From: a virus
Length of the DNA: 48,333 nt
IMG/VR virus record: IMGVR_UViG_3300009320_000027
Location: 1-48,333 of that record
Strand: one strand, 5' to 3'
In this document: piece by piece, positions 2,318 to 35,409 of the stretch
Numbering within the stretch: the first letter of the stretch is position 1
Layout of the letters: the number at the start of each line of letters is the position of its first letter
Made by a program: the position numbers and the translations under genes
The notes under the pieces: model-generated
Told to the model about the DNA's origin: nothing
What the model saw: only the letters and a program-made list of their open reading frames with translations
The model's database searches: none

Positions 2318-4903
2318 ATGTCCAGACAATCCGCTCCCCATGGCATTGATGACCTCATTGCAGGCACCCTTGGGCTACCTAAAAAAGAACTGTGGGACTA
2401 TCAAGTCTTTCACGCCTACGAGCTTGTGGGACAACTACTCACGGACCACGTAACCATATTGGGTGGCCCCATGGGGTGCGGGAAGACTATCATCGTCCGG
2501 TACTCTGTTGAGATTCTTCTCTCGACTGGGGCACTGCGGGCGGCCTTGGTTGTAGCCCCCCAGCACCAAATCAAAGCCAGTTGGAGCGAGGGCGCGGTCC
2601 TGACCCTCCCCAAGAAATACGACCCTACGGTCTGGGAACTCGGGTCAGGGGTCACTATCCGACAAGACCAGTGGGAGGAAGTGTCCAAACCCTCCTATGA
2701 GCTGGCTCCGTGGTTGGCGCAGAAGTCACCCACCCCCAGAACTCTGGTTGCAACCCATCAGGGCCTCCTCACTGCGTTTGACTCGGCTCGCGGGGGCTTC
2801 TTCGAGAAGGGATTGGATGGGAAATTCACAGACAAGAAGCTCGATTTGACCGGGAGACTCCTTATCCTCGATGAAACCCATCATGTCGCTGTGGACAACG
2901 CAATGGGGCGAGCCGTAAAGGCTTGGGAGGAGCAAGGAGGAATGCTGGCATACGTTTCCGGGACATTGTTCCGGCAGTCGGGCAAGATACGTCTTCCCGA
3001 CATCACGCCGTCGTTCCGTTCACAGGCACAGCACGTTATGGAGGGGTTCGCCCCGGAGCTTAATTTCGAGTTCAAGAATTTTTCCTTCAAAGCATTGTCC
3101 AAGGAGAGTTTGGCGGGGGACATATTACCGGAGGGCGACCTGTCGACGCTGGCCAAGGAAATCGTCCAGTGGTGGGATAATGCAGAGCGGCCCCCTTTCG
3201 TCCTTGTAGTCCCCCGTGCTTCCAAAAAGACCACGATGGGTTCCAAGAAATGGGCGGTGATGCTGAAAAGAGAGTTTGAAAAACTCCCAGAAGCCCCACG
3301 AGTATTCGATGCTGTCGGGTCTTCACAGGACGTTAAGGAGCGACTCTACCGTGTATTGAGGGAAGAACGGGCGCGAGCCTCGAAAGGGGAAGAACGGGCA
3401 TGGGATATTTTCCTCGCGGGTAAGCGATTTGATGAGGGGACTGACTGGCCCTTCTGTTGTGCCGTGGGGGTCATCGGGCTTCCCCGTTCTTTGCTTCGTA
3501 TCATGCAACTGATGGGACGCGGGGGCCGGAGGAAGGATAATCTGGTTGGTATCCCACCGAGATACCAAAGATGTTCTACGATGGTGTTTTTCATGCCCGC
3601 CAGCCATGTCGAGAAGGCGTGGGCTGCTTATGAGAGGGACCATGCGGAATATGTGTGGTCCCTCTCCACGGCGTGGGTGAATTATCAGACCATCTCCAAA
3701 TACCTCGCGGAGCAAAGAAAGACTGGCACAGGTTTGGAGGTCCTGCGTAAGAGGGCTGGGGACAAACCCAAAAGCGCCCTTGTCTGGTTGGCCATCACCT
3801 CCCTCCTCGGGTGGGATATAGAGAAGACACACAGGGTCTACACGCTGCTCCAACAGGCTGTCATTGCAGCCAAAAAGCGTAAACCCACCAAGGCCGAATT
3901 AGAACAATGTCTCCGTGTCCGTCTGGGGTGTGACGACCGGCAGATTGCGGACGCCTTTCGGGCTTATCAGGTCCGGCAACTCATGGGAAATCCCAAAGAA
4001 CTTCAGCAGTTCGCTGCTCGTGTGACCCGGATGGTAGAGGGGACCAAGGTCAGCGACCGTCTCATCCGTCAGGAGTTACAGGTTTCATTCGATAAGGCCA
4101 CGGAGGACTTCTCGGACCTCGTGGATGCCTCTAGGGCGACTCAGACGCTCGTGGCCACCATCAAGGGGCAAACCGCAAAGCAGGTGGAGCGTGCGCTTCG
4201 GGAGGTCCTTCAGATACCAGACTATACATTGCCGGAGGTCACGGATATTGTTCAGCGGTATTTTGACCAGACCGGCAATGTACCGGACGCCGCTACCCGT
4301 GACAACTTGGAGAGGTACACCGGGGAGCCGCGTGTCACATTCCATCTTCTCAACAAGCACCTTATTGAGAAATTCGACGGGATGACCCTTTTACGTCTTA
4401 CGCAGGACATGGGGCTGGGGGGCTGGTCGGGGGGTCCTCGGAATAAGCATCAGATGGCGTTCGAGAAATTCCACCGGCAGAACCCGACTATATTGGAGCG
4501 ATTCATCGAAGGGGCTTTGGACCACCGGGCTGCGGGCAACACCAGATGCTCCATCCAACAGCTCGACGGGAAGCTGCGGTATGCCGACGGAGGCCATCCT
4601 TATGTGGACTCCAATATCACCTCGTACTACGTCCGAGTTATTATCAGTCTCGTCCCTGCCCTCACTGGATTCTTCAAGACTTTGAGTAAGGCCGACCGGG
4701 TTGTGGACCTGAAGGCTCTCGGTATCGACTGGGCGGACCGGAGATGGGATGACTACCACATCCGAGCTGGGGGGGAGTTGCCTCGGGAAATGCCCCGGAG
4801 GCTCGCGGGGGCCAATTCGGACTCGAAGAAAGCACCTGTGACCGCTCGGGCTTTCACTTTCCGCCCGGACGACATCGACATCTTTGAGGTCTTTGATGCC
4901 TAG
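2318..4903 (+). CDS. Superfamily 2 DEAD/DEAH-type helicase or translocase
   Basis: An 861-residue protein with clear SF2 ATPase motifs. Walker A is GGPMGCGKT at residues 49-57, the DExH-type Walker B is DETHH at 185-189, and a motif III-like VSGT follows about 30 residues later. A motif VI-like QLMGRGGRR lies at 397-405. The C-terminal 450 residues are of unknown fold and probably bind nucleic acid or partners. The start is set by AACAAGGAGGG five bases upstream. Codon use is visibly less GC-rich at third positions than in the capsid genes, suggesting later acquisition. The gene overlaps the next one by eight bases, so the two are probably co-translated. Whether it serves replication, repair or an anti-host or anti-phage function cannot be decided. 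Confidence 0.85.
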   Translation: MSRQSAPHGIDDLIAGTLGLPKKELWDYQVFHAYELVGQLLTDHVTILGGPMGCGKTIIVRYSVEILLSTGALRAALVVAPQHQIKASWSEGAVLTLPKKYDPTVWELGSGVTIRQDQWEEVSKPSYELAPWLAQKSPTPRTLVATHQGLLTAFDSARGGFFEKGLDGKFTDKKLDLTGRLLILDETHHVAVDNAMGRAVKAWEEQGGMLAYVSGTLFRQSGKIRLPDITPSFRSQAQHVMEGFAPELNFEFKNFSFKALSKESLAGDILPEGDLSTLAKEIVQWWDNAERPPFVLVVPRASKKTTMGSKKWAVMLKREFEKLPEAPRVFDAVGSSQDVKERLYRVLREERARASKGEERAWDIFLAGKRFDEGTDWPFCCAVGVIGLPRSLLRIMQLMGRGGRRKDNLVGIPPRYQRCSTMVFFMPASHVEKAWAAYERDHAEYVWSLSTAWVNYQTISKYLAEQRKTGTGLEVLRKRAGDKPKSALVWLAITSLLGWDIEKTHRVYTLLQQAVIAAKKRKPTKAELEQCLRVRLGCDDRQIADAFRAYQVRQLMGNPKELQQFAARVTRMVEGTKVSDRLIRQELQVSFDKATEDFSDLVDASRATQTLVATIKGQTAKQVERALREVLQIPDYTLPEVTDIVQRYFDQTGNVPDAATRDNLERYTGEPRVTFHLLNKHLIEKFDGMTLLRLTQDMGLGGWSGGPRNKHQMAFEKFHRQNPTILERFIEGALDHRAAGNTRCSIQQLDGKLRYADGGHPYVDSNITSYYVRVIISLVPALTGFFKTLSKADRVVDLKALGIDWADRRWDDYHIRAGGELPREMPRRLAGANSDSKKAPVTARAFTFRPDDIDIFEVFDA

Positions 4904-21252: not shown

Positions 21253-21735
21253 TCAAAGGTTACTCGCCAGCATGTCCAAGGCCACCTGAAAGGCCGTCTC
21301 GGCAACCTGCCTCTTGGTCACACGCCGGTCGTCATCATCGACCAGCAACTTGGTAGTGGTGGTTTTCTTGTCCCGCCACATCACGCACAGGTGGACTTCT
21401 CCGACACGAGAGTCGGAGTTGGCCGGGTCAGCCCGGCCCAAGCTCCCCGTGACCGCGATGCAGATGTCGGCGTCCAGTTTTTCGAGGCCCACCTCGGCCA
21501 TAGCCTCCGCACACTCTGGCGAGTAGACCCCGTGGTCAGTGATGACTTCGGCAGGAACGCCGAGGGCGACCTTGGCCGCGTTGGAATAGGTAACGAAGGC
21601 ACCCTCGATGACCTCGGAGGAGCCTGATATGTCAGTGAGGGCGTTGACGATGGCCCCACCCGTGCAGGACTCGACAGTGGTGAGGGTGAGTCTTTCGATG
21701 GTCAGTTCTTTTACGAGCGACCCGGCAAATCTCAT
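21253..21735 (-). CDS. pncC: Nicotinamide-nucleotide amidohydrolase (PncC/CinA C-terminal type)
   Basis: A 160-residue stand-alone CinA C-terminal domain, the usual length for PncC. The signature TVESCTGG lies at residues 20-27 with nucleophile Ser23. A GAFVTYSNAAK segment carries Tyr51 and Lys56, and the Gly-rich VTGSLGRADP loop near residue 95 is conserved. PncC hydrolyses nicotinamide mononucleotide to nicotinate mononucleotide and recycles NAD breakdown products in the cytoplasm. CAGGAG precedes the ATG. It is the last gene of the minus-strand cluster, 47 bases after the ARPP-1-like gene. Phage carriage suggests NAD turnover matters during infection. Confidence 0.85.
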   Translation of the reverse strand: MRFAGSLVKELTIERLTLTTVESCTGGAIVNALTDISGSSEVIEGAFVTYSNAAKVALGVPAEVITDHGVYSPECAEAMAEVGLEKLDADICIAVTGSLGRADPANSDSRVGEVHLCVMWRDKKTTTTKLLVDDDDRRVTKRQVAETAFQVALDMLASNL

Positions 21736-21782: not shown

Positions 21783-22766
21783 CTAAGCCCCTGCCGCGCA
21801 GAGAGATACGTAAGGCATACGACCATCGGTCAGCACGAGCTGGCCCGCCAGCCGCGAGTTGGCGACCGTCACCAGTTCCATGCCCGTCAGCTTGTCATCC
21901 GCCTCTCCTGCGAACAGGAGCGGGGCAGCCTTCACCGAATCCACGGCTGCCTCGATGAGGGCAGTGGACTGTGTACGGGCGGTCTTCAGGGCTGCCGCGA
22001 TGCCCGCGAGGGACTTCTCCTCGACCACCATGGGAGAGCGGGTTGGCGGAGGGGTGTCCCCCAGCTTCACCCGTGCCTTGAGGGCGAGGGAGCCGTAGCA
22101 GACCCGCACGAGCGGAGTCCACAGTCGGTTCCAGAAGTCCACGTTGGGCGCACGCTCTACCCCCACGACCTGTCCGCCGATGAGGATGACAGCACCGAGC
22201 TGGTTCGGCACCAGCTCGAACTCGGCCACGAACTGGTCCAGTTCCGTCTCGTACTTCTTGAGGAACATGACCAGATGGCCACCGGAGTCCTCCACCCCGA
22301 GGCTCGTGTTGAACCGCGTGATGTCGTTCCACAGGAGGTCATACCCCTTCGAGTGCCGACCCGTGAGGGCCGGAGTCCGCAGGGATGCCGGGAGAATGAG
22401 CATGTCCTTCGCGTCGCGGATGTATCCGCCCTGTGAGGACTCGATGCACCTCGCCCGGTCGATGGTCTTGTTCTCGCCCGCCTTCATCAGGTGAGCGGAC
22501 GGAACAGCGTGGTCCTGTGCGTGCTGCTTCGTGACCCAGCCAGCTCCCGTCGGGAGAATGGTCGGGCGGTCCGGGCTGTCATTGCTGACGCGCACCGTTC
22601 CGTAGTCCGAGGTGCCAACGGTGAACTCCGGCGGAGCGAAGCTGGCATCGGAAGCATCCCCACCATCGAGGATGGGGACGACTTCCATGTGACCCACGGA
22701 CTGCACCTGTCCGAAGCCCGTTCCGTTCAGGATAGCTTTGACAGTGAGTTGTGTCTGCCTTGTCAT
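21783..22766 (-). CDS. ARPP-1-like domain protein
   Basis: A 327-residue protein with GGAGAGG before its ATG. Residues about 10-110 show the layout I associate with the ARPP-1 family: an N-terminal strand region, a segment GTVRVSNDSPDRPTILPTG, a Lys-Gln pair in TKQHAQDH, then a conserved Cys-Glu in RARCIESSQGG. The remainder includes a helical part and a DFWNRLW motif. In that family the function is unknown, with proposed links to conflict or nucleotide-ligand systems. It lies 12 bases after the Ro60-like gene, in the same direction, so it is almost certainly co-transcribed. Lack of the usual GExxxG sequence makes the match approximate. Confidence 0.6.
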   Translation of the reverse strand: MTRQTQLTVKAILNGTGFGQVQSVGHMEVVPILDGGDASDASFAPPEFTVGTSDYGTVRVSNDSPDRPTILPTGAGWVTKQHAQDHAVPSAHLMKAGENKTIDRARCIESSQGGYIRDAKDMLILPASLRTPALTGRHSKGYDLLWNDITRFNTSLGVEDSGGHLVMFLKKYETELDQFVAEFELVPNQLGAVILIGGQVVGVERAPNVDFWNRLWTPLVRVCYGSLALKARVKLGDTPPPTRSPMVVEEKSLAGIAAALKTARTQSTALIEAAVDSVKAAPLLFAGEADDKLTGMELVTVANSRLAGQLVLTDGRMPYVSLCAAGA

Positions 22767-22778
22767 GTTGCACCTCTC

Positions 22779-24398
22779 CTACTTGCACTCCACGAGTGCC
22801 TTCATCTCCACCGGGCCACTGGTGAGGGCCATACGCACGAGTGCGTTGATGCCCACGAGCGGCTCGTTCTCGATGAGGCCCCGGATGATGGTGGCCCCCA
22901 GAGACGCCGGAGACTGCACCGGCATGGTCGGAACCATGGTTGCAGCCAGCTCCCTGACTCCGGTTGCCTCAGCGGCGAATACCGGGTTCAGGTGGTAGAC
23001 CGGCGTCTCGATTCCAATCTCGCGGATGTGGCTCATCACTTCCGCGAACCGTCCCGCCGGGGCATTTTCGTACCCATCGGACAGGACGTAGACGGCCCCC
23101 GGCTCCTCCATGAGGACTTCCACGAGGCAGTCTGCCAGCGCGGTGTCACCCATCGGGCGCACGAGGTCGTTGCCTTCTCCCATCTGGCCGCCCACGTAGC
23201 GGGTCACGGCCTCGTCTCCCACATGCTGAAGCATGTCCCGCATGGCCAGCGTGGCTGCCATCGGGCAGAGCGGCTGGGTCTTGTCCCCTGCCATCGAGGT
23301 CGAGGCATCCACGACGATGCCGACCTTGGTGTACCGGGCCGGGAATCCGGCGGCGGCCTTCAGCGCCTTCTCTGCCAGCGCCTTGATGATGTCCTCGGTG
23401 AGGCCCATCTCGAAGGCGTACAGGTACAGGCGCACGGCGTCGTACTTGGTCGGGTCCAGCTTGACCTCGACTCCGGCGGCCTTGGCCTTCCGCTGGGCGG
23501 CCATCTTCTGACCGGACGACATCTTGCCGCCCTTGGAGACGAGCTTGAGAACCTCGTCCTTGGACACGCCCTTGTGGTACGTGGCCCGGATGCCTTCCAG
23601 CACCTCCATCGGGAGCCGCGCACCGGCCTTGAGGTCGGTCTTGGCCTCGACGAAAGCCCGGAGCATCGGCACAGTCAGCCCCTCGCGGTTGCCGAACACG
23701 AACCCGACGCACTCGCGGACGGTCTTGGTCTGGCCCGACTTGGCGTACTGGTCGATGAGGGCCGCGACGATTCCCTTCTCCTTGGCGTCCCACTCACCCT
23801 TGGACAGGATGGCCCGCAGGGCAGACGACATCTTCTGACCCCATGCGTGCGTCAGAGCGGATGCCACCTTCGAGCGGTACTTCACGGCCCACAGCGGCAG
23901 GCGCGGGGACGAGAGCAGGGTCCGCAGGATGAGCTTGCGGGTACGGGCGTTGTTCGCCTTCTTGAGTCCCAGCTCCTCGGAGCCGAACCGGAAGGCGTCC
24001 ATCAGCCGCAGCATCCTCGGTGCCGGGAGGCTCTGGATGAGGTGGTACAGGACCGCCCTCTCCATTGCCGGGTTCAGGAACTCCTCCATTGCCCCGTTGC
24101 GCGGGGTGGACAGGAGGGCCTTCATCCCGACCTGTACGGAACGGTCCGTGATGCCCGGCAGCGCAAGCAGGACCGCGTAGAGGTCCCGGCTCATCCCCAT
24201 CAGGTTCATGTGGGATGCCAGCTCGGCCACCTGCTGTTCCTCGCGGGTGTTGTAGTGCGAGGCCCGGCCCATGCTGGTAGTCGCAGCGTCAAGGAACGAC
24301 GTGACGAACAGTCCGGCCACCTCGGGCGTAGTTTCGCCCTTCGGCTGCCACAGAATGGCATCCGTTCCCACGGTGGTCATCAGAGTCTTTTCAGTCAT
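22779..24398 (-). CDS. Ro60-like TROVE-type ring protein with C-terminal vWA domain
   Basis: A 539-residue protein. The ATG at 24398 follows CCGGAGG; the frame is open further upstream but without a site. Residues 1-320 are all-helical repeat, with NNARTRKLILRTLL followed by LPLWAVKYRSKVASALTHAWG, the kind of segment found in TROVE modules. Residues about 355-539 form a von Willebrand A domain: strand KVGIVVDASTSM with a complete MIDAS (Asp364, Ser366, Ser368), later VYVLSDGYEN. Ro60 proteins bind Y RNAs and misfolded RNAs through the helical ring. A tRNA-like RNA with its own promoter lies directly upstream, which fits. The TROVE call rests on architecture and context. Confidence 0.75.
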   Translation of the reverse strand: MTEKTLMTTVGTDAILWQPKGETTPEVAGLFVTSFLDAATTSMGRASHYNTREEQQVAELASHMNLMGMSRDLYAVLLALPGITDRSVQVGMKALLSTPRNGAMEEFLNPAMERAVLYHLIQSLPAPRMLRLMDAFRFGSEELGLKKANNARTRKLILRTLLSSPRLPLWAVKYRSKVASALTHAWGQKMSSALRAILSKGEWDAKEKGIVAALIDQYAKSGQTKTVRECVGFVFGNREGLTVPMLRAFVEAKTDLKAGARLPMEVLEGIRATYHKGVSKDEVLKLVSKGGKMSSGQKMAAQRKAKAAGVEVKLDPTKYDAVRLYLYAFEMGLTEDIIKALAEKALKAAAGFPARYTKVGIVVDASTSMAGDKTQPLCPMAATLAMRDMLQHVGDEAVTRYVGGQMGEGNDLVRPMGDTALADCLVEVLMEEPGAVYVLSDGYENAPAGRFAEVMSHIREIGIETPVYHLNPVFAAEATGVRELAATMVPTMPVQSPASLGATIIRGLIENEPLVGINALVRMALTSGPVEMKALVECK

Positions 24399-24455
24399 CA
24401 CGCACCTCCGGTACAAGGCGCACACCATCCCCAATGATGTGCGCGTCGAGAAAAC

Positions 24456-24517
24456 AGCGGGCAGGGAGCGCATCGGGTTGTGGTAGCTTCACCTGAACCA
24501 ATACGCTAGTTCCCGCT
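24456..24517 (-). ncRNA. Structured hairpin RNA, copy B
   Basis: A 62-base hairpin upstream of the Ro60-like gene. The outer stem is AGCGGG/CCCGCT and the inner stem AGCGTAT/ATGCGCT, which includes a G-U pair only when read as minus-strand RNA. The apical part has GGTT/AACC and GGT/ACC. It is homologous to the copy at 24584-24643: the same outer stem and a shared AGTTCCCGC on the plus strand, but a different inner stem that still pairs. Confidence 0.6.
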
Positions 24518-24583
24518 GGGTCTTCTACTCGACCGCTCGCAGTTCTAAGCCCCTTGGTGGATTTTAGTTCTGCTGGGGAAGAA

Positions 24584-24643
24584 GCGGGCAGGGGTAACAA
24601 CGAGGGTTGGTTGTGATACCTGTATCGTTGTCAGAGTTCCCGC
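24584..24643 (-). ncRNA. Structured hairpin RNA, copy A
   Basis: A 60-base hairpin with outer stem GCGGG/CCCGC, a perfect seven-pair inner stem ACAACGA/TCGTTGT and an apical GGT-ATCACA-ACC loop. It shares outer-stem and loop sequences with copy B but not the inner stem, so the base pairing is preserved through compensatory changes. Both lie on the transcript predicted from the promoter at 24788-24816. Confidence 0.6.
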
Positions 24644-24660
24644 GTCAGTGACGTTGGGTC

Positions 24661-24782
24661 GAGTCGAGCAAGACGGGTGTCAGTGTTTGAAGAATCCGGC
24701 TTTGACACCGGGACCTTCGGCTTAGTAGGCCGACGCTCTACACTGAGCTAATCCAGAACCGACAACACAGTTCTCGACTCAA
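24661..24782 (-). ncRNA. Y-RNA-like RNA with tRNA-like module
   Basis: Read as minus-strand RNA, the ends pair perfectly over eight bases (GAGTCGAG with CTCGACTC, extendable by two wobble or AU pairs). Inside is a tRNA mimic. The D-arm is GCTC-AGTGTA-GAGC (24735-24748). A five-pair anticodon-type stem TCGGC/GCCGA has the seven-base loop CTACTAA (24717-24733). A T-arm-like CCGG-TGTCAAAG-CCGG lies at 24696-24711. The acceptor stem does not close properly and the T-loop is not canonical, so this is not an ordinary tRNA. Known bacterial YrlA RNAs place exactly such a tRNA-like module inside a Ro-binding end stem. The predicted transcription start coincides with the stem's first base. Confidence 0.65.
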
Positions 24783-24787
24783 GGCCA

Positions 24788-24816
24788 CTTTTACATGGGT
24801 CCAAATCTCGTGTCAA
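24788..24816 (-). promoter_or_regulatory. TTGACA-type promoter for the Y-RNA/Ro60 unit
   Basis: On the minus strand, TTGACA (24811-24816) is followed by a 17-base spacer and TAAAAG (24788-24793, four of six consensus bases). Initiation about seven bases on, near 24781, begins at the closing stem of the tRNA-like RNA. Just upstream is an A/T-tract inverted repeat (AACTTTTT and AAAAAGTT, 24818-24835). The element GAAAAAAGTTCTTGACA differs at only two positions from that of the MerR promoter. Confidence 0.65.
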
Positions 24817-24873: not shown

Positions 24874-25440
24874 ATGAGCGTCCAAGTGATAGGCCCCAAG
24901 GACTTCCGCCCGCCCCACGCCATCGACACGACTTCGAGGTCGAGAAATTGGAGTCGGGGGCTGAGTCCTTTCTTGGTTGGGCCGGTCCCTCTCTACGAAG
25001 GGGCGGTTGTCCCCGAGTCCAAGAACATGGAGAACGCTTGGCAGTTCGCCAAGGTCTACCCGGAGCATGTCGGGGACTTGGGGTTCCCCGACTCTCCCTA
25101 CTTCGAGTGGGCCAGACGCGGCTGGAAAGACCCTCGTGGCCATCGGCACCCCATGGGTCGCCGCGCCCCCGCCTATTCGTGGTGGGGCGGAGAGAGGCTC
25201 GGGTACGTCGAGGCCCGGAAGCGCATCTACATCCCGCTCTACGCGAGGGCCGTGGCCAAGACCGAAGCCTTCTCGCAGCTCCGGGCGTTGTACGTGGAGC
25301 GTGGGGAGCTGACTCTCTGGGACTTCGACGGGTACGACTACAGGGCGATGGGGATGAGCTGGAAGGAAGTGCGTGATAACGTGAACAGGCCAATGGGCCA
25401 CGCCTTCGTGCTGGCCTATTTGTTAGAGGGATTGCGTTGA
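24874..25440 (+). CDS. DUF6939-like protein
   Basis: A 188-residue protein with TAGGAG before its ATG. The string NMENAWQFAKVYPEH, then PMGRRAPAYSWW, then GYVEARKRIYIPLYARAV, then TLWDFDGYDYR and MGHAFVLAYLLEG covers the whole length. It matches my memory of a compact family (DUF6939) of unknown function seen in phages and some bacteria. The Glu-x-x-x-Gln arrangement in ENAWQFAK is reminiscent of NADAR ADP-ribose-handling domains. Given the nearby NAD-related genes this is worth testing but is not established. It diverges from the Ro60 promoter, 58 bases away. Confidence 0.65.
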   Translation: MSVQVIGPKDFRPPHAIDTTSRSRNWSRGLSPFLVGPVPLYEGAVVPESKNMENAWQFAKVYPEHVGDLGFPDSPYFEWARRGWKDPRGHRHPMGRRAPAYSWWGGERLGYVEARKRIYIPLYARAVAKTEAFSQLRALYVERGELTLWDFDGYDYRAMGMSWKEVRDNVNRPMGHAFVLAYLLEGLR

Positions 25441-26289: not shown

Positions 26290-26894
26290 TCAGGAGCGTG
26301 GCTCCCCCGTCCGTAGGTTCCTCTTGGCCCATTGAGCCTTGGCCCGCTCCGACCGAACCCGGCGCTGCTCATCTGTCAGGTTCAGTTTTCGACCCTTCCT
26401 TTGTTTGCTCCAACGGGCGCAAAGTTCAGGGGACCATTCGTGGGTGGCCCGCCAGACCTTCGACATCTTGGCTTTTGCCTCCTTCGATTTCGGGACATCC
26501 CTTTGGGGGCTGCTACCTTCTCCCTCTCAGCGGGGTCTTCAAAACGCTTCTTGGCCTTCTCGCTGAGGGTCAGGCACGTCTTCTCGAAGTCGGGGTTGTA
26601 CTGGGCCGAACCCGAGAGGTTCACACATCCGGGTTTCCCGAAGTTCCGGTCGAGCCACTCCTGCTCCATTTGGATGAGGGCCTCGGGGTCGGCTGCGGTA
26701 GCGATTACTTCCGGCTCAAATCGGTGGCCGTGTTTGTTGAACACCGACTGCATGAAGTCGTTGGGGTGGTTTCCGCTACGGAGCATCCGGCGATGTCGCT
26801 GCCATCTTTCGGGGACGTTTTTCGAGCGGCCCCCGTAGTAGTGGGTGTCCGAAAGGTGGATGACATAAAGGCTTAGTGGGGTAGGATTGTCCAT
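26290..26894 (-). pseudogene. GIY-YIG homing endonuclease with frameshift
   Basis: The 5' part (from 26894) encodes a GIY-YIG-type nuclease: LSLYVIHLSDTHYYGGRS with the variant YVI/YYGG, then ERWQRHRRML and an EWLDRN segment with the catalytic-type Glu. After FEDPAEREK, about residue 125, the open frame becomes basic nonsense and stops at 26382. In a neighbouring frame the sequence continues sensibly as AKAKMSKVWRATHEWSPEL and then KQRKGRKLNLTDEQRRVRSE, a NUMOD-like DNA-binding tail ending at 26290. A one-base indel near the five-G run at 26515-26519 would restore it. The intact product would be about 200 residues. Confidence 0.7.
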
Positions 26895-26993: not shown

Positions 26994-27113
26994 ATGGCAC
27001 GGGATGAACGGGTGTTTTGGGCCTACGTCATTCAGTCTGAGGTGCCCCGAGGCACCAAGCCCGGTTTCTTCTACGTCGGCTGCACCACCGACCCGGCGCG
27101 ACGCCTGCGCCAT
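26994..27113 (+). pseudogene. 5' fragment of a second GIY-YIG endonuclease gene
   Basis: An AGGAGGG site and ATG introduce MARDERVFWAYVIQSE followed by PGFFYVGCTTDPARRLR, clearly the first 40 residues of a GIY-YIG domain. They are close to PGFFYVGMTTDPSRRLR in the minus-strand gene at 27071. After about residue 40 the reading frame loses all similarity because the DNA is now the antisense of that minus-strand gene. The fragment keeps its ribosome site but has lost its catalytic C-terminal part. Confidence 0.65.
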
Positions 27114-28189
27114 TCAAGAGGACTGGGAGGTTTCCATGAGGGGTCCGAAACCCAAGGATGTTGCGGCCCTTCACCCCGGCAAAGTGGGCTATCTTGGAGG
27201 GACCAATGCAGGCGGCCTTGCCCCCGTTTCTGGCGTTTCAGAGCATATTCGGCCCTGAGAGATTCGGAGCGGCTGAAGTAAGGGCCGTACAAAGCCTTAG
27301 CTTCCCAAGGTCGATGTTTAGAGGTGTACTTCCCTCCGTTTGGGTTCCCTGACATTCCATTCATATATAGTCCGTTGTGTTCACGGAGCCGCCTTGAGGG
27401 GTCTGTTGTCATCCCGACGTAGAAAAAGCCGGGGAGTGGTTGTCCTCTGGCTCCTGTTCGGGGTTTAAGGCTTTGGATGACATAGACCCAATAAAGATTT
27501 TTGGGCAGTGCAGGTAGGGTTTTATTGACACAGCCATCTCCTGTGTCCCAACCCCTTTGAATATAGCGGGTTTCTGCTTCCAGTGCCATTTCTTCGCTGG
27601 GGTGGGTTTCCACGATTATGAGGTCTGCGGTGGCAAAATCCTTCTTTTGAAGATTGCTGGTGTGCTGGCACCTTGCAACGAGGCTCTTGTGGGCGTTGAA
27701 GCGAAGGTCAGCATGACAGGAAGACCCCAAATAGTAGGTACTGTCAGAGAAGTTTATTCGATACACACACCATTGTCTTCTGGCTTCCTTCTTTTGTCTG
27801 ATGGAGTCAGCGTTGGCCGCATAATAAGCACGGTCGCGGTGCCGGTTTTTCTTTCTGTATTTCTTGATATATTCTTGGTTCTCCCTTCGCCACTTCCGCG
27901 CATTCTTTTGTACTTTCTTGGGATTTGCTTCTGCATATTTCCGGGAAGCCTCCCTTTTTTTCTCTGGGTCTTTGTAGTAGCTGCGGTGTCTTTGTGCAGC
28001 CACTTTATCCGGGTTGCGTTTTTTCCAATCCCGGTTGTAATCTGCTCGGGCTTTCTTGGTGATTTTTCTATATGCCTTCTCGCATTCTCGGCACTGGCTA
28101 CGAAGACCATCTTTGCTAGAGGATTTTCGGTTGAACTGAGTTTTTTCTTTACGGGTTTTGCAGCAGGAGCAAACTTTGAAATTTTCCAT
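27071..28189 (-). CDS. Fused double GIY-YIG endonuclease with zinc motif
   Basis: A 372-residue protein. Residues 1-40 hold a zinc site (Cys7, Cys10, Cys33, Cys36), then a Lys/Arg-rich helix. A first, degenerate GIY-YIG domain spans about 140-215 (CVYRINFSDSTYYLGSSC, then NAHKSLV). A second, better one spans about 232-330 (YWVYVIQSLKP, then PGFFYVGMTTDPSRRLREHN, then HRPWEAKALYG and SLRAEYALKRQKRG). The final residues run antisense through the start of another GIY-YIG gene, so the C-terminus is probably non-native. Codons are AT-rich. The ribosome site is weak. A homing role is likely. Confidence 0.7.
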   Translation of the reverse strand: MENFKVCSCCKTRKEKTQFNRKSSSKDGLRSQCRECEKAYRKITKKARADYNRDWKKRNPDKVAAQRHRSYYKDPEKKREASRKYAEANPKKVQKNARKWRRENQEYIKKYRKKNRHRDRAYYAANADSIRQKKEARRQWCVYRINFSDSTYYLGSSCHADLRFNAHKSLVARCQHTSNLQKKDFATADLIIVETHPSEEMALEAETRYIQRGWDTGDGCVNKTLPALPKNLYWVYVIQSLKPRTGARGQPLPGFFYVGMTTDPSRRLREHNGLYMNGMSGNPNGGKYTSKHRPWEAKALYGPYFSRSESLRAEYALKRQKRGQGRLHWSLQDSPLCRGEGPQHPWVSDPSWKPPSPLEWRRRRAGSVVQPT

Positions 28190-32672: not shown

Positions 32673-33283
32673 GGGAAGCCCGACTCACCTGCCGCACCCA
32701 GTCCTACCATGTGAAGGACATGCGCCTGAACATGGTCCGGGGCGAGGTTGTCTGGTGTTCGATGGAAGAGGCAGAGGCTTCGAGCGATTTGATGGTCGCT
32801 CGAAGGGCCAAGGCCATCGAGGTGGTCTTTATAGAGAGGACCCGCCAAGAACGCGAATTAGCTCCGGCTCGGCCCGCGCCCGATGTCTTGCCTAAGTCCT
32901 CGAAATCTATATGGAATCCCCCTCCCAGCCGGGGCACGGAGATGCCAACCAAAATCGACGCAGAGGACCTGCTTCGACGGCTGGGTCCGAACCTCCTGAC
33001 CCGCGAGCAGGTGGCCGAGCTGATTCAGCAGCACTTCGCGGACTTCAAGGGCGACATCGGGGCGCTCCTGCGGGAGATTCTGGCCGGGCTGACACTGCCG
33101 CAGGCGGCCCCGGTGGGTACAGTGGGGGAGAAGGTCGGCGGTGATGAGCCTATGTTCATCCCTGAACAGATAATGGGTGACGCCAAGGCCACCATCACCG
33201 TGCAGGAAGAGGAAACTTCCGGTGACGGAGTGGATGCCGCTGCGGACGCCCTGAGAAAAGCTCGGCAAGGAGACAAGACATGA
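32669..33283 (+). CDS. Phage protein of unknown function, TTG start
   Basis: A 204-residue protein starting with TTG in a TTGA overlap. The N-terminal 65 residues (LTCRTQSYHVKDMRLNMVRG, then EEAEASSDLMVARRAKA) form a small beta-plus-helix domain common to phage virion clusters. The middle is Pro-rich. A helical part contains LLRRLGPNLLTREQVAELI, and the acidic C-terminus overlaps the actin-like gene by ATGA. It may be an adaptor in the neck region. No family named. Confidence 0.55.
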   Translation: MREARLTCRTQSYHVKDMRLNMVRGEVVWCSMEEAEASSDLMVARRAKAIEVVFIERTRQERELAPARPAPDVLPKSSKSIWNPPPSRGTEMPTKIDAEDLLRRLGPNLLTREQVAELIQQHFADFKGDIGALLREILAGLTLPQAAPVGTVGEKVGGDEPMFIPEQIMGDAKATITVQEEETSGDGVDAAADALRKARQGDKT

Positions 33284-35409
33284 AGCACAGACCACCAGCA
33301 CCGGCTCCGGCAGAAGCCGCCCCAGCCCCAGCAGTGTTGCCCGGCATCGGGCTTGACATCGGAACCATGAATTTGGTGTCTGCCCGGCGCGGCCCCAAGG
33401 GCGTCGTGACCAAGCGGATGCGCGACCTGTTCATCGACCTGCCCCTGAGCGCGAGGAAGATGCTGAAGCTCTCCAAGGCCAGCAGCTACGTGGAGCGCGA
33501 GGACGATGTGGTCATCCTCGGGGACGCCGCGTTGGAGACAGCCAACGTCTTCGGGAAGGAGCCACGACGCCCTCTGAAGGCGGGCCTCATCTCACCGGAC
33601 GAGTCACAGAGCCTCGAAATCCTCGGCCTCCTCATCAAGGAGGTTCTGGGCAAGCCCGTGGTCGAGAACGAGGTCTGCTACTTCAGCGTTCCGGCGGAAC
33701 CCATCGACCAGCCCGAGAAGGACATCATCTATCATCGGGCCGTGTTCGAGCGCATCGTCAAGGAGTGTGGGTACAAAGGCACCCCCTCGAACGAGGGCAT
33801 GGGCATCATCTACTCGGAGACGGCCAAGGACCAGTTCTCGGGCATTGCCCTGAGCTTCGGGTCCGGCATGACCAACGTCGCCCTCGCCATCAACACCATC
33901 GAGGGACTCACGTTCTCGGTCGCTCGCTGCTTGGCTGAGGGTTTCCCGGTGGTAACGAGACAAGGAGTCACTCGGATAGAGGGTGTATCAGAAGGGGATG
34001 AAGTGCTTGATGCCTTCGGTAAGTTCGTTAAGGTGCGGGAAAAACTGGATAACGGACAACGCACGGAGTTGGTTGAAGTAAAGTTGGAGAACCTTCCCGC
34101 ATTTCCCCATCAAATGACTCCTGACCATCAGGTCTTCGTGAGACGGCGATTTGGATGGGTGTGGGTGAAGGCCGAGAATCTGGTCCCCGGTGATGAGGTG
34201 GGTATCCCAACTATTCAGGCAGAACGGGACAGCGGGTCATGCTACTATTTTGGACGGGAGGGCAGTGATAATATCACCGTGGCAGGGGCTAGGAATTTAG
34301 GTCGATTTTTCGGAGTTTTTTTGGGGGATGGTTCCTGCGGGGGTTCAGCAAAGGATGGCCCCCGTTATGTGCAGATTGCCTTCAATCGCCGGGACCAACA
34401 TCTTGTCGAGAAGTATGCCGAGGTCTGTAATATTTTGTTCCACCGAAAAGTCGAGGTCGTGGATGCTGTGGATGAAAACATTACTCGGCTGAAATTGCAT
34501 GTTACTCCGGTTGCACGGCATCTGCATGAGCGGTTCTATAACGGGAATTGTGAGAAGACATTTCCTCTTGAACTATCAAAGGTTTCTAACCAGACAGCAC
34601 TCGGCATCCTTGAAGGGTTGTTTGATAGTGATGGGCACGAAGAACCCAAACGACTTACGCTCACCAACACCTCGCTTTCTGTGGTGATGTTAGCCCACCA
34701 CATCTTGAATAGATTTGGGGTTGCTCACAGTATTTCGCGGCGTCCCCCACGTTTGGGGGGTGTGAACTCACGGGGGGTTCGCATTGAGGGTCGAAAGGAT
34801 GTCTATGAAGTCCGTGTCCAAGGACACATTGCTGCAACAAAACTCAAGACTTTGTTGACTGTTGAGGGTCATCAAATATTCGACAAATTTTCTGATTTTA
34901 TGGTTTATCGAGTGGTTTCTGCCGAGACAGTGAACGCTACGGTCCGGGTCTACGACCTTCGGGTGGCTTCTAATCACCATTCGTTTGCATCACCCGGCAT
35001 GGTTGTTCACAACTGCGGGGACTGGATTGACAGAGGTGCCGCTCAGTCCACCGGGACCACACAGGCTCGTGCCTGCGCCACTAAGGAGAAGGGCATCGAC
35101 CTCACCAAGCCCAACGGTCGGCTGGAAGAGGCCATCGTGTTCTACTACCGGGCGCTGGGCAACTACGTCCTCGACCAGATTGCGGACCGCTTCAAGGCCA
35201 TCGCGGACCAGTTCTCGCTCTCGAAGCCCATCCCGCTGGTGGTGTCCGGTGGCACGAGCAAGGTCGGGGGCTTCATGCCCTTCTTCACCGAGCTGTTCGA
35301 GGAGCGCCGCAAGCGGTTCCCCATCGAAATCTCGGACATCCGGCACGCGGCGCAGCCGTTGAATGCGGTCGCGCTCGGAATGCTGGTGCAGGCGACCACG
35401 GGGGACTGA
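33280..35409 (+). CDS. Actin-like ATPase (ParM/StbA-type) split by an intein
   Basis: A 709-residue precursor; after splicing about 347 residues. The host protein shows the actin-fold ATP site: phosphate-1 loop GLDIGT at residues 24-29, a second loop ALSFGSGMTNVAL before the intein, and the adenosine motif SGGTSKVGGF after it. The intein (residues 217-578) interrupts just before CGDWIDRGA. Actin-like filaments in phages and plasmids position or segregate DNA, so a filament role is plausible, but the location in a virion block is unusual. CAAGGAG precedes the ATG. Confidence 0.8.
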   Translation: MKHRPPAPAPAEAAPAPAVLPGIGLDIGTMNLVSARRGPKGVVTKRMRDLFIDLPLSARKMLKLSKASSYVEREDDVVILGDAALETANVFGKEPRRPLKAGLISPDESQSLEILGLLIKEVLGKPVVENEVCYFSVPAEPIDQPEKDIIYHRAVFERIVKECGYKGTPSNEGMGIIYSETAKDQFSGIALSFGSGMTNVALAINTIEGLTFSVARCLAEGFPVVTRQGVTRIEGVSEGDEVLDAFGKFVKVREKLDNGQRTELVEVKLENLPAFPHQMTPDHQVFVRRRFGWVWVKAENLVPGDEVGIPTIQAERDSGSCYYFGREGSDNITVAGARNLGRFFGVFLGDGSCGGSAKDGPRYVQIAFNRRDQHLVEKYAEVCNILFHRKVEVVDAVDENITRLKLHVTPVARHLHERFYNGNCEKTFPLELSKVSNQTALGILEGLFDSDGHEEPKRLTLTNTSLSVVMLAHHILNRFGVAHSISRRPPRLGGVNSRGVRIEGRKDVYEVRVQGHIAATKLKTLLTVEGHQIFDKFSDFMVYRVVSAETVNATVRVYDLRVASNHHSFASPGMVVHNCGDWIDRGAAQSTGTTQARACATKEKGIDLTKPNGRLEEAIVFYYRALGNYVLDQIADRFKAIADQFSLSKPIPLVVSGGTSKVGGFMPFFTELFEERRKRFPIEISDIRHAAQPLNAVALGMLVQATTGD
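33928..35013 (+). mobile_element. Intein with LAGLIDADG-type homing domain
   Basis: 362 residues from Cys1 (CLAEGFPVVTRQGV) to the C-terminal VVHN, with Cys as the first extein residue. Splicing blocks are visible: an N-terminal Cys, block B MTPDHQVFV with Thr and His, and the final His-Asn. Two LAGLIDADG-type motifs, FFGVFLGDGSC and LGILEGLFDSDG, keep the acidic residues expected of an active homing nuclease. The intein is clearly AT-richer than the exteins, consistent with recent arrival. Splicing and nuclease activity look intact. Confidence 0.85.

Follow-up and report, generated by a model that had tools for sequence, protein, structure and literature searches.

In this work we describe a viral locus that probably encodes a Ro60-type ribonucleoprotein, which would act in trans by showing a tRNA surface to a tRNA-acting enzyme. 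The window, by which we mean the whole stretch of DNA analysed, is a virus record of 48,333 bases with 61% G+C. Comparative evidence is decisive for the reality of the longest of its small RNAs, RNA 1, which to judge from its relatives is almost certainly a conserved structured RNA gene, and very probably the partner of the Ro60-like protein encoded downstream. This supports the original prediction that the phage encodes its own Ro60–Y RNA particle, as a structured RNA with a putative promoter of its own stands beside a gene for a protein of predicted Ro60 fold, and the pair is conserved across many phages and in some bacteria; we infer binding of the RNA by the protein from the genomic pairing and the architecture. 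The features of the locus are as follows.

24788–24816, minus strand: putative sigma-70-type promoter, TTGACA-N17-TAAAAG, read from the sequence; predicted start at 24781–24780
24659–24782, minus strand: RNA 1, about 124 nt, two-stem scaffold with a natural-order tRNA-like module (folds, strict descriptor match, Rfam tRNA)
24692–24754, minus strand: tRNA-like module of RNA 1 (Rfam tRNA match), anticodon ACU at 24726–24724, acceptor of 4 bp, no CCA
24584–24643, minus strand: RNA 2, same scaffold, a 16-nt loop replacing the tRNA (strict descriptor; covariance model R2, 12.2 bits, E 0.33 in the window)
24455–24518, minus strand: RNA 3, same scaffold, 16-nt loop (strict descriptor; R2, 19.3 bits, E 0.003 in the window)
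22779–24398, minus strand: Ro60-like protein (TROVE fold plus vWA), 539 aa, start ATG at 24398 behind GGAGG (AlphaFold2, Foldseek, VIA)
21783–22766, minus strand: second gene of the operon, a predicted enzyme with an ARPP-1 domain (Pfam PF20208, E 1.7e-25)

The scaffold RNAs and their relatives

RNA 1 is framed by stem A (24782–24773 paired with 24668–24659, 10 pairs including one G-U) and stem B (24764–24758 paired with 24684–24678), with CCCGUCUUG at 24677–24669 as the 3′ side of the internal loop. The perfect eight-pair stem noticed originally, GAGUCGAG/CUCGACUC, is present and extends to the ten pairs of stem A. The D-arm, the five-pair anticodon arm with its seven-base loop and the T-arm-like hairpin were likewise all found by folding and by the Rfam tRNA match; they stand in that order and are not circularly permuted. 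The D-arm pairs GCUC with GAGC, the anticodon arm (24733–24717) reads UCGGC-CUACUAA-GCCGA with anticodon ACU, and the T-arm is hairpin-like but degenerate. On 24754–24692 the Rfam tRNA model (RF00005) reaches 37 bits, above its cut-off of 29, and covers only positions 4–67 of its 71. Because the acceptor is reduced to 4 of 7 pairs, no CCA follows and the T-arm is degenerate, RNA 1 is not a working tRNA; ARAGORN calls no tRNA at this position, and we rejected a plain tRNA on the acceptor, the missing CCA and this null result. The outcome that the original prediction had named as evidence against itself, a tRNA called with confidence and with its acceptor stem closed, was thus not obtained in the window. 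The fold energy, taken alone, is modest (z −2.46; 1 of 200 shuffles lower).

The kinship with YrlA proposed at the outset holds for the end stem enclosing a tRNA-like module, but not beyond it: the Rfam YrlA model (RF02553, gathering score 69) has no match in the window and the module is in natural order, not permuted. We therefore rejected RNA 1 as a YrlA RNA, as it lacks the Rfam match and is a natural-order tRNA that keeps its anticodon arm. It nevertheless has the features of a bacterial Y RNA in the broad sense, namely paired ends, a stem–internal loop–stem, an effector module and an adjoining Ro60-fold gene.

The putative promoter comprises TTGACA at 24816–24811, a 17-nt spacer and the −10-like TAAAAG at 24793–24788 on the minus strand; seven bases separate TAAAAG from GAGTCGAG at 24780–24773, so that the predicted start, at about 24781, is the foot of the end stem of RNA 1. 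TTGACA followed 16–18 bases on by a −10-like hexamer that ends 5–9 nt before stem A occurs in the window and in the related loci L010, L014, L016 (two RNAs), L017 (two), L018, L019 and L062, and L058 has TTGACT with TATAAT in the same position. The original reading of this promoter, with initiation near 24781, agrees with the sequence and is supported by the promoters at the matching place in relatives. A DUF6939 gene (24874–25440, plus strand) lies directly upstream of the promoter on the opposite strand.

Two further copies of the scaffold, at 24643–24584 and 24518–24455, had escaped the original prediction. All three RNAs lie 5′ of the Ro60-like gene, on its strand and within 385 nt, RNAs 2 and 3 being placed between RNA 1 and the gene. 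A strict scaffold descriptor applied to both strands of the window gives exactly three matches, which are adjacent (24772, 24638 and 24511), whereas shuffled windows give 0.1 on average. In other loci it gives 34 sense matches and 1 antisense, counts that are not fully independent, since the descriptor and the R2 training set derive from loci found through the protein. The independent covariance model R2, from whose training the window was excluded, misses RNA 1 in its scan of the window, so that RNA 1 is placed by the descriptor and by comparison alone; this miss is probably due to the 70-nt insert and to an unpaired A beside stem A. We set aside the highest-scoring R2 match in the window (25068–25093, plus strand), a short hairpin within an open reading frame to which only the outer stem aligns. 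Model R1, built from an AT-rich group, has no match in the window. As wholes, the scaffold RNAs of the window match no Rfam family.

Searches of viral and genome collections with the Ro60-like protein as a single query recovered no relatives; these were recovered by searches with an alignment of two sequences and then of eight. About 33 viral loci, on contigs of up to 436 kb, and 26 cellular loci, among them Minicystis, Deltaproteobacteria and Planctomycetes, encode relatives. In most of them, short RNAs with a common scaffold lie upstream of the Ro60-like gene. The scaffold is made up, in order, of stem A, RACU, a 12-base stretch including stem B, CAG, the module, stem B′, a 9-nt stretch whose eighth base is U, and stem A′; in a divergent, AT-rich group the 12 bases are 11 and the loop is of 6–7 bases. 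More than 60 members of this RNA family were found. A scaffold scan of the 1.8 kb upstream of the gene in 52 loci gave 66 sense and 2 antisense matches (1.4 in dinucleotide shuffles), and the same scan over 423 kb downstream gave 7 sense and 9 antisense. The bacterial matches are an independent check, because the motif had already been fixed from viral loci when the bacterial loci were obtained.

MAFFT alignment of the untrimmed RNAs gave no consensus structure, which was obtained from trimmed, register-fixed sets. Among 17 group-I RNAs, 11 of the 14 pairs have changed on both sides, with 64 compensatory cells against 20 in shuffled sets and at most 16 with partners slid; the second, divergent group gave 60 against 16.6 shuffled. 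The RNAs in these sets were chosen for pairing, which biases the fraction paired; the informative measures are the two controls, slid and shuffled, and the diversity of pair types. Judged by these measures, the scaffold structure is under selection.

The Ro60-like protein and its gene neighbourhood

The original prediction called the neighbouring protein TROVE/vWA, which holds for the predicted fold but not for Pfam sequence matching. An AlphaFold2 model of the 22779–24398 protein, made from eight relatives (pLDDT 79), retrieves with Foldseek only Ro60/TROVE structures at ranks 1–9 (probability 1.00), and with VIA-align it reaches Z 16.5 against 9kop, a TROVE domain, 15.8 against 9l5y, the Ro60 dimer of Thermus phage phiLo, and 11.2 against 2nvo, Deinococcus Rsr. 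These Ro60/TROVE alignments span about 400 residues, and vWA-only proteins reach Z 10.5 at most. In the model, the chain is over nearly its whole length a HEAT-repeat ring plus vWA fold like that of Ro60, which supports a homologous fold and not RNA binding. Neither the window protein nor its relatives match Pfam TROVE (PF05731), the window protein is not identified as TROVE by sequence searches of Pfam, PHROGs and PDB, and hhalign against canonical phage Ro60 aligns 132 columns in the vWA part only (probability 42, E 2.7e-4). The combination of Ro60-ranked structural matches with the lack of a Pfam TROVE match indicates a Ro60-fold protein that is far from the canonical family by sequence.

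The ARPP-1 gene adjoins the Ro60-like gene in every close relative examined. The PF20208 protein has been described as a predicted enzyme with conserved Cys and Gln (PMC9503650). It is common to the ARPP domain systems and to the window locus; the known contexts of those systems are ADP-ribosylglycohydrolase conflict systems, whereas a pairing with Ro60 is absent from the description in the accessible part of that source (PMC9503650). Downstream of ARPP-1 lies a gene with a CinA C-terminal domain (21253–21735, minus strand); among relatives, a CinA match near the Ro60-like/ARPP-1 pair occurs in L066 only. Two GIY-YIG homing-endonuclease-like genes lie near the locus (26382–26894 and 27071–28189, both minus strand), and the phage encodes a Volactin-like protein (PF25216, E 3e-67; 33280–35409, plus strand) split by an intein with a LAGLIDADG endonuclease domain. 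In L043, L044, L045, L048, L051 and L055, the bacterial Ro60-like/ARPP-1 pairs are embedded in tRNA gene arrays with between 16 and 49 calls, the longest having 49 ARAGORN calls in 13.6 kb.

tRNA-like modules and the action of the particle

The scaffold holds three kinds of module: natural-order tRNAs (the window, L010, L011, L014, L016–L019, L024, L029, L047–L051 and others), permuted tRNAs of the YrlA kind (L016, L017, L019, L020, L029, L034 and L043), and plain or hairpin loops. An anticodon-like hairpin, defined as 4–7 pairs with a 7-base loop that has U second and a purine sixth, T-loops being set aside, occurs in 41 of the 72 modules of at least 17 bases, against 2.8 in shuffled modules. 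Among modules without a T-arm motif, the degenerate one of the window included, 15 of 36 hold such a hairpin. The anticodon differs at the same place between close relatives: the stem UCGGC/GCCGA is common to the window (ACU), L018 (ACA) and L014 (UGA), and only 6 of 112 positions vary among five Planctomycete orthologues, three of them being tRNA positions 34, 36 and 37. Differing anticodons are also normal between tRNA genes, and the argument from variability rests on the orthologous position, with a planctomycete sample of five sequences.

Other structured RNAs were seen in these loci. A second planctomycete RNA with two hairpins (L048 5736–5827, L049 1298–1391, L050 5792–5884, L051 4256–4349) has in the four species one hairpin with a 7-base anticodon-like loop, with triplets CAG, GAA, UAG and UGA. 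A permuted YrlA-like RNA is followed immediately by a phage tmRNA-like gene in L004 (1347–1705) and L005 (1468–1845). In the huge phage LR756500 (L002), the acceptor 5′ strand of two tRNAs (2940–3085 and 3330–3485) is at least about 70 nt from the D-arm, and the intervening stretch carries hairpins and the ACU...CAG signature, in what may be a nested or permuted arrangement.

We propose that up to three small RNAs come from their own promoter and have a common clamp, in which an internal loop with RACU on its 5′ strand and 9 nt on its 3′ strand joins the outer stem A to the inner stem B; this clamp would be bound by the Ro60-like ring protein encoded just downstream. In RNA 1, the clamp would hold a tRNA-like domain that cannot be charged, having no acceptor or CCA, and that retains the elbow and a canonical 7-nt anticodon loop. 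Acting in trans, the particle would present a tRNA surface, above all the anticodon arm, to a tRNA-acting enzyme; that relatives in huge phages and in bacterial tRNA islands have the same arrangement with changing anticodons suggests a particle that offers fake tRNAs to tRNA-handling enzymes. The target would most likely be a host anticodon nuclease or a similar tRNA-directed effector, which would be decoyed or captured; alternatively, the particle may hold a nuclease, as Rsr–YrlA holds PNPase. RNAs 2 and 3 have no tRNA-like module, therefore a tRNA decoy is not the role of every copy, and RNAs of this kind may gate the ring or carry other cargo.

How the tRNA surface would be used is less firm. 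An anticodon-directed decoy is a tentative reading, and a decoy or capture role is favoured by an anticodon arm that is retained yet varies, by ends that are uncharged, by the tRNA arrays and by the occurrence in phages. We know of no anticodon nuclease in the host of this phage, which counts against a decoy. The main rival is a plain nuclease tether, in which the RNA, like YrlA, would serve only as an adaptor that fastens a nuclease such as PNPase to the ring, its likeness to tRNA providing stability and docking without display of an anticodon. We hold this adaptor-only reading to be rather doubtful, and a tethering role, suggested by analogy, to be possible but on the unlikely side. An action of this type is already known for Rsr–YrlA–PNPase, in which the paired end of the Y RNA is the binding site of Rsr and the tRNA-like part of YrlA holds PNPase (PMC8394870), and permuted YrlA-like RNAs with the same scaffold and neighbourhood occur in L016, L017 and L019. 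However, the arms that YrlA imitates are D, T and acceptor (PMC8394870); in the present RNAs it is the anticodon arm that is kept and varied, even in some modules that lack a T-arm. It has also been proposed that YrlA might competitively inhibit anticodon nuclease (PMC7790460).

The remaining explanations do without a decoy or a tether. The scaffold might store or protect genuine tRNAs for later excision and charging, as suggested by relatives that have 6–7 acceptor pairs and then ACC(A) (seven in L016; six with ACCA in L017 and L041), by the closed seven-pair acceptor that L032 has, like L016, inside the same scaffold, and by the bacterial relatives within tRNA arrays; but in the window module the acceptor is too short, the CCA is missing and the T-arm is broken, some modules have the anticodons UUA or UCA, which would read stop codons, and permuted or hairpin-only modules could not yield tRNAs. 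We regard such caged precursors as improbable. The position of all three structures ahead of the gene would also fit a cis-acting leader that regulates the Ro60-like mRNA, for instance as an autoregulatory binding site; this is very improbable, as module lengths and types vary freely and copies with their own promoters stand 3–4 kb from the gene in other phages (L016, −3799; L017, −3682), an observation that argues for action in trans. That RNA 1 is a decayed tRNA gene surrounded by a chance hairpin, as its truncated acceptor and modest z-score might suggest, is hardly credible: scaffold, promoter and covariation are conserved across phages and bacteria, and the covariation and the strict descriptor counts in essence refute it.

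Relation to known systems

Phage Ro60 with Y RNAs is already known as a kind. TROVE in jumbo phages and phage Y RNAs have been mentioned (PMC7824862, PMC7765460), 343 phage records match human Ro60, and YrlA-like matches lie near the Ro gene in 4 of the 5 canonical phages checked. The locus resembles YrlA (RF02553) with Rsr in its end stem, internal loop and second stem closing a tRNA-like module, in the adjoining Ro60-fold gene, and in the permuted YrlA-like copies with the window's scaffold in related phages, which are sub-threshold Rfam matches (YrlA scores of 29–33 bits were obtained for other RNAs, in L004 and L005 only). It differs in that YrlA is circularly permuted whereas RNA 1 is a natural-order tRNA with an intact anticodon arm, in the signature RACU-N12-CAG, the 9-nt 3′ loop and the several RNAs per locus, and in having no Rfam YrlA match, a protein beyond Pfam TROVE and an ARPP-1 partner. 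The Ro-like proteins of actinobacteriophages and jumbo phages stand, as here, beside tRNA genes and YrlA-like RNAs; however, their profile aligns with the window protein in the vWA part only, none of the five canonical phage Ro loci has the scaffold beside the Ro gene (the single match of a relaxed scan lies in L073, at 1.75 kb from the gene), and neither R1 nor R2 matches anything in these five loci. TROVE has been reported in 20 of 29 archaeal tRNA clusters (PMC6333295) and mycobacterial tRNA arrays have been called putative antidefence (PMC12803027). The bacterial relatives likewise sit in tRNA arrays, but the accessible parts of these papers (PMC6333295, PMC12803027) describe no scaffold RNAs, and the present clade is mainly bacterial and viral. 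As far as these sequence comparisons reach, what is new is the divergent Ro60/ARPP-1 clade, the RNA arrays, the scaffold signature unreported by Rfam, the natural-order tRNA module and the variable anticodons.

The arrays of huge phages and bacterial tRNA islands could, in a speculative extension, be racks of Ro60-clamped decoy RNAs with ARPP-1 as enzyme partner. Each RNA would present either an uncharged tRNA or just an anticodon hairpin, with anticodons that turn over quickly among close relatives, and the rack would soak up or capture the anticodon nucleases of phage defence. For the roles of bacterial and phage Y RNAs, this clade offers a concrete hypothesis, testable with short RNAs and one protein, in which Ro60 particles may act as tRNA decoys or tRNA-damage sensors in the conflict between phage and host.
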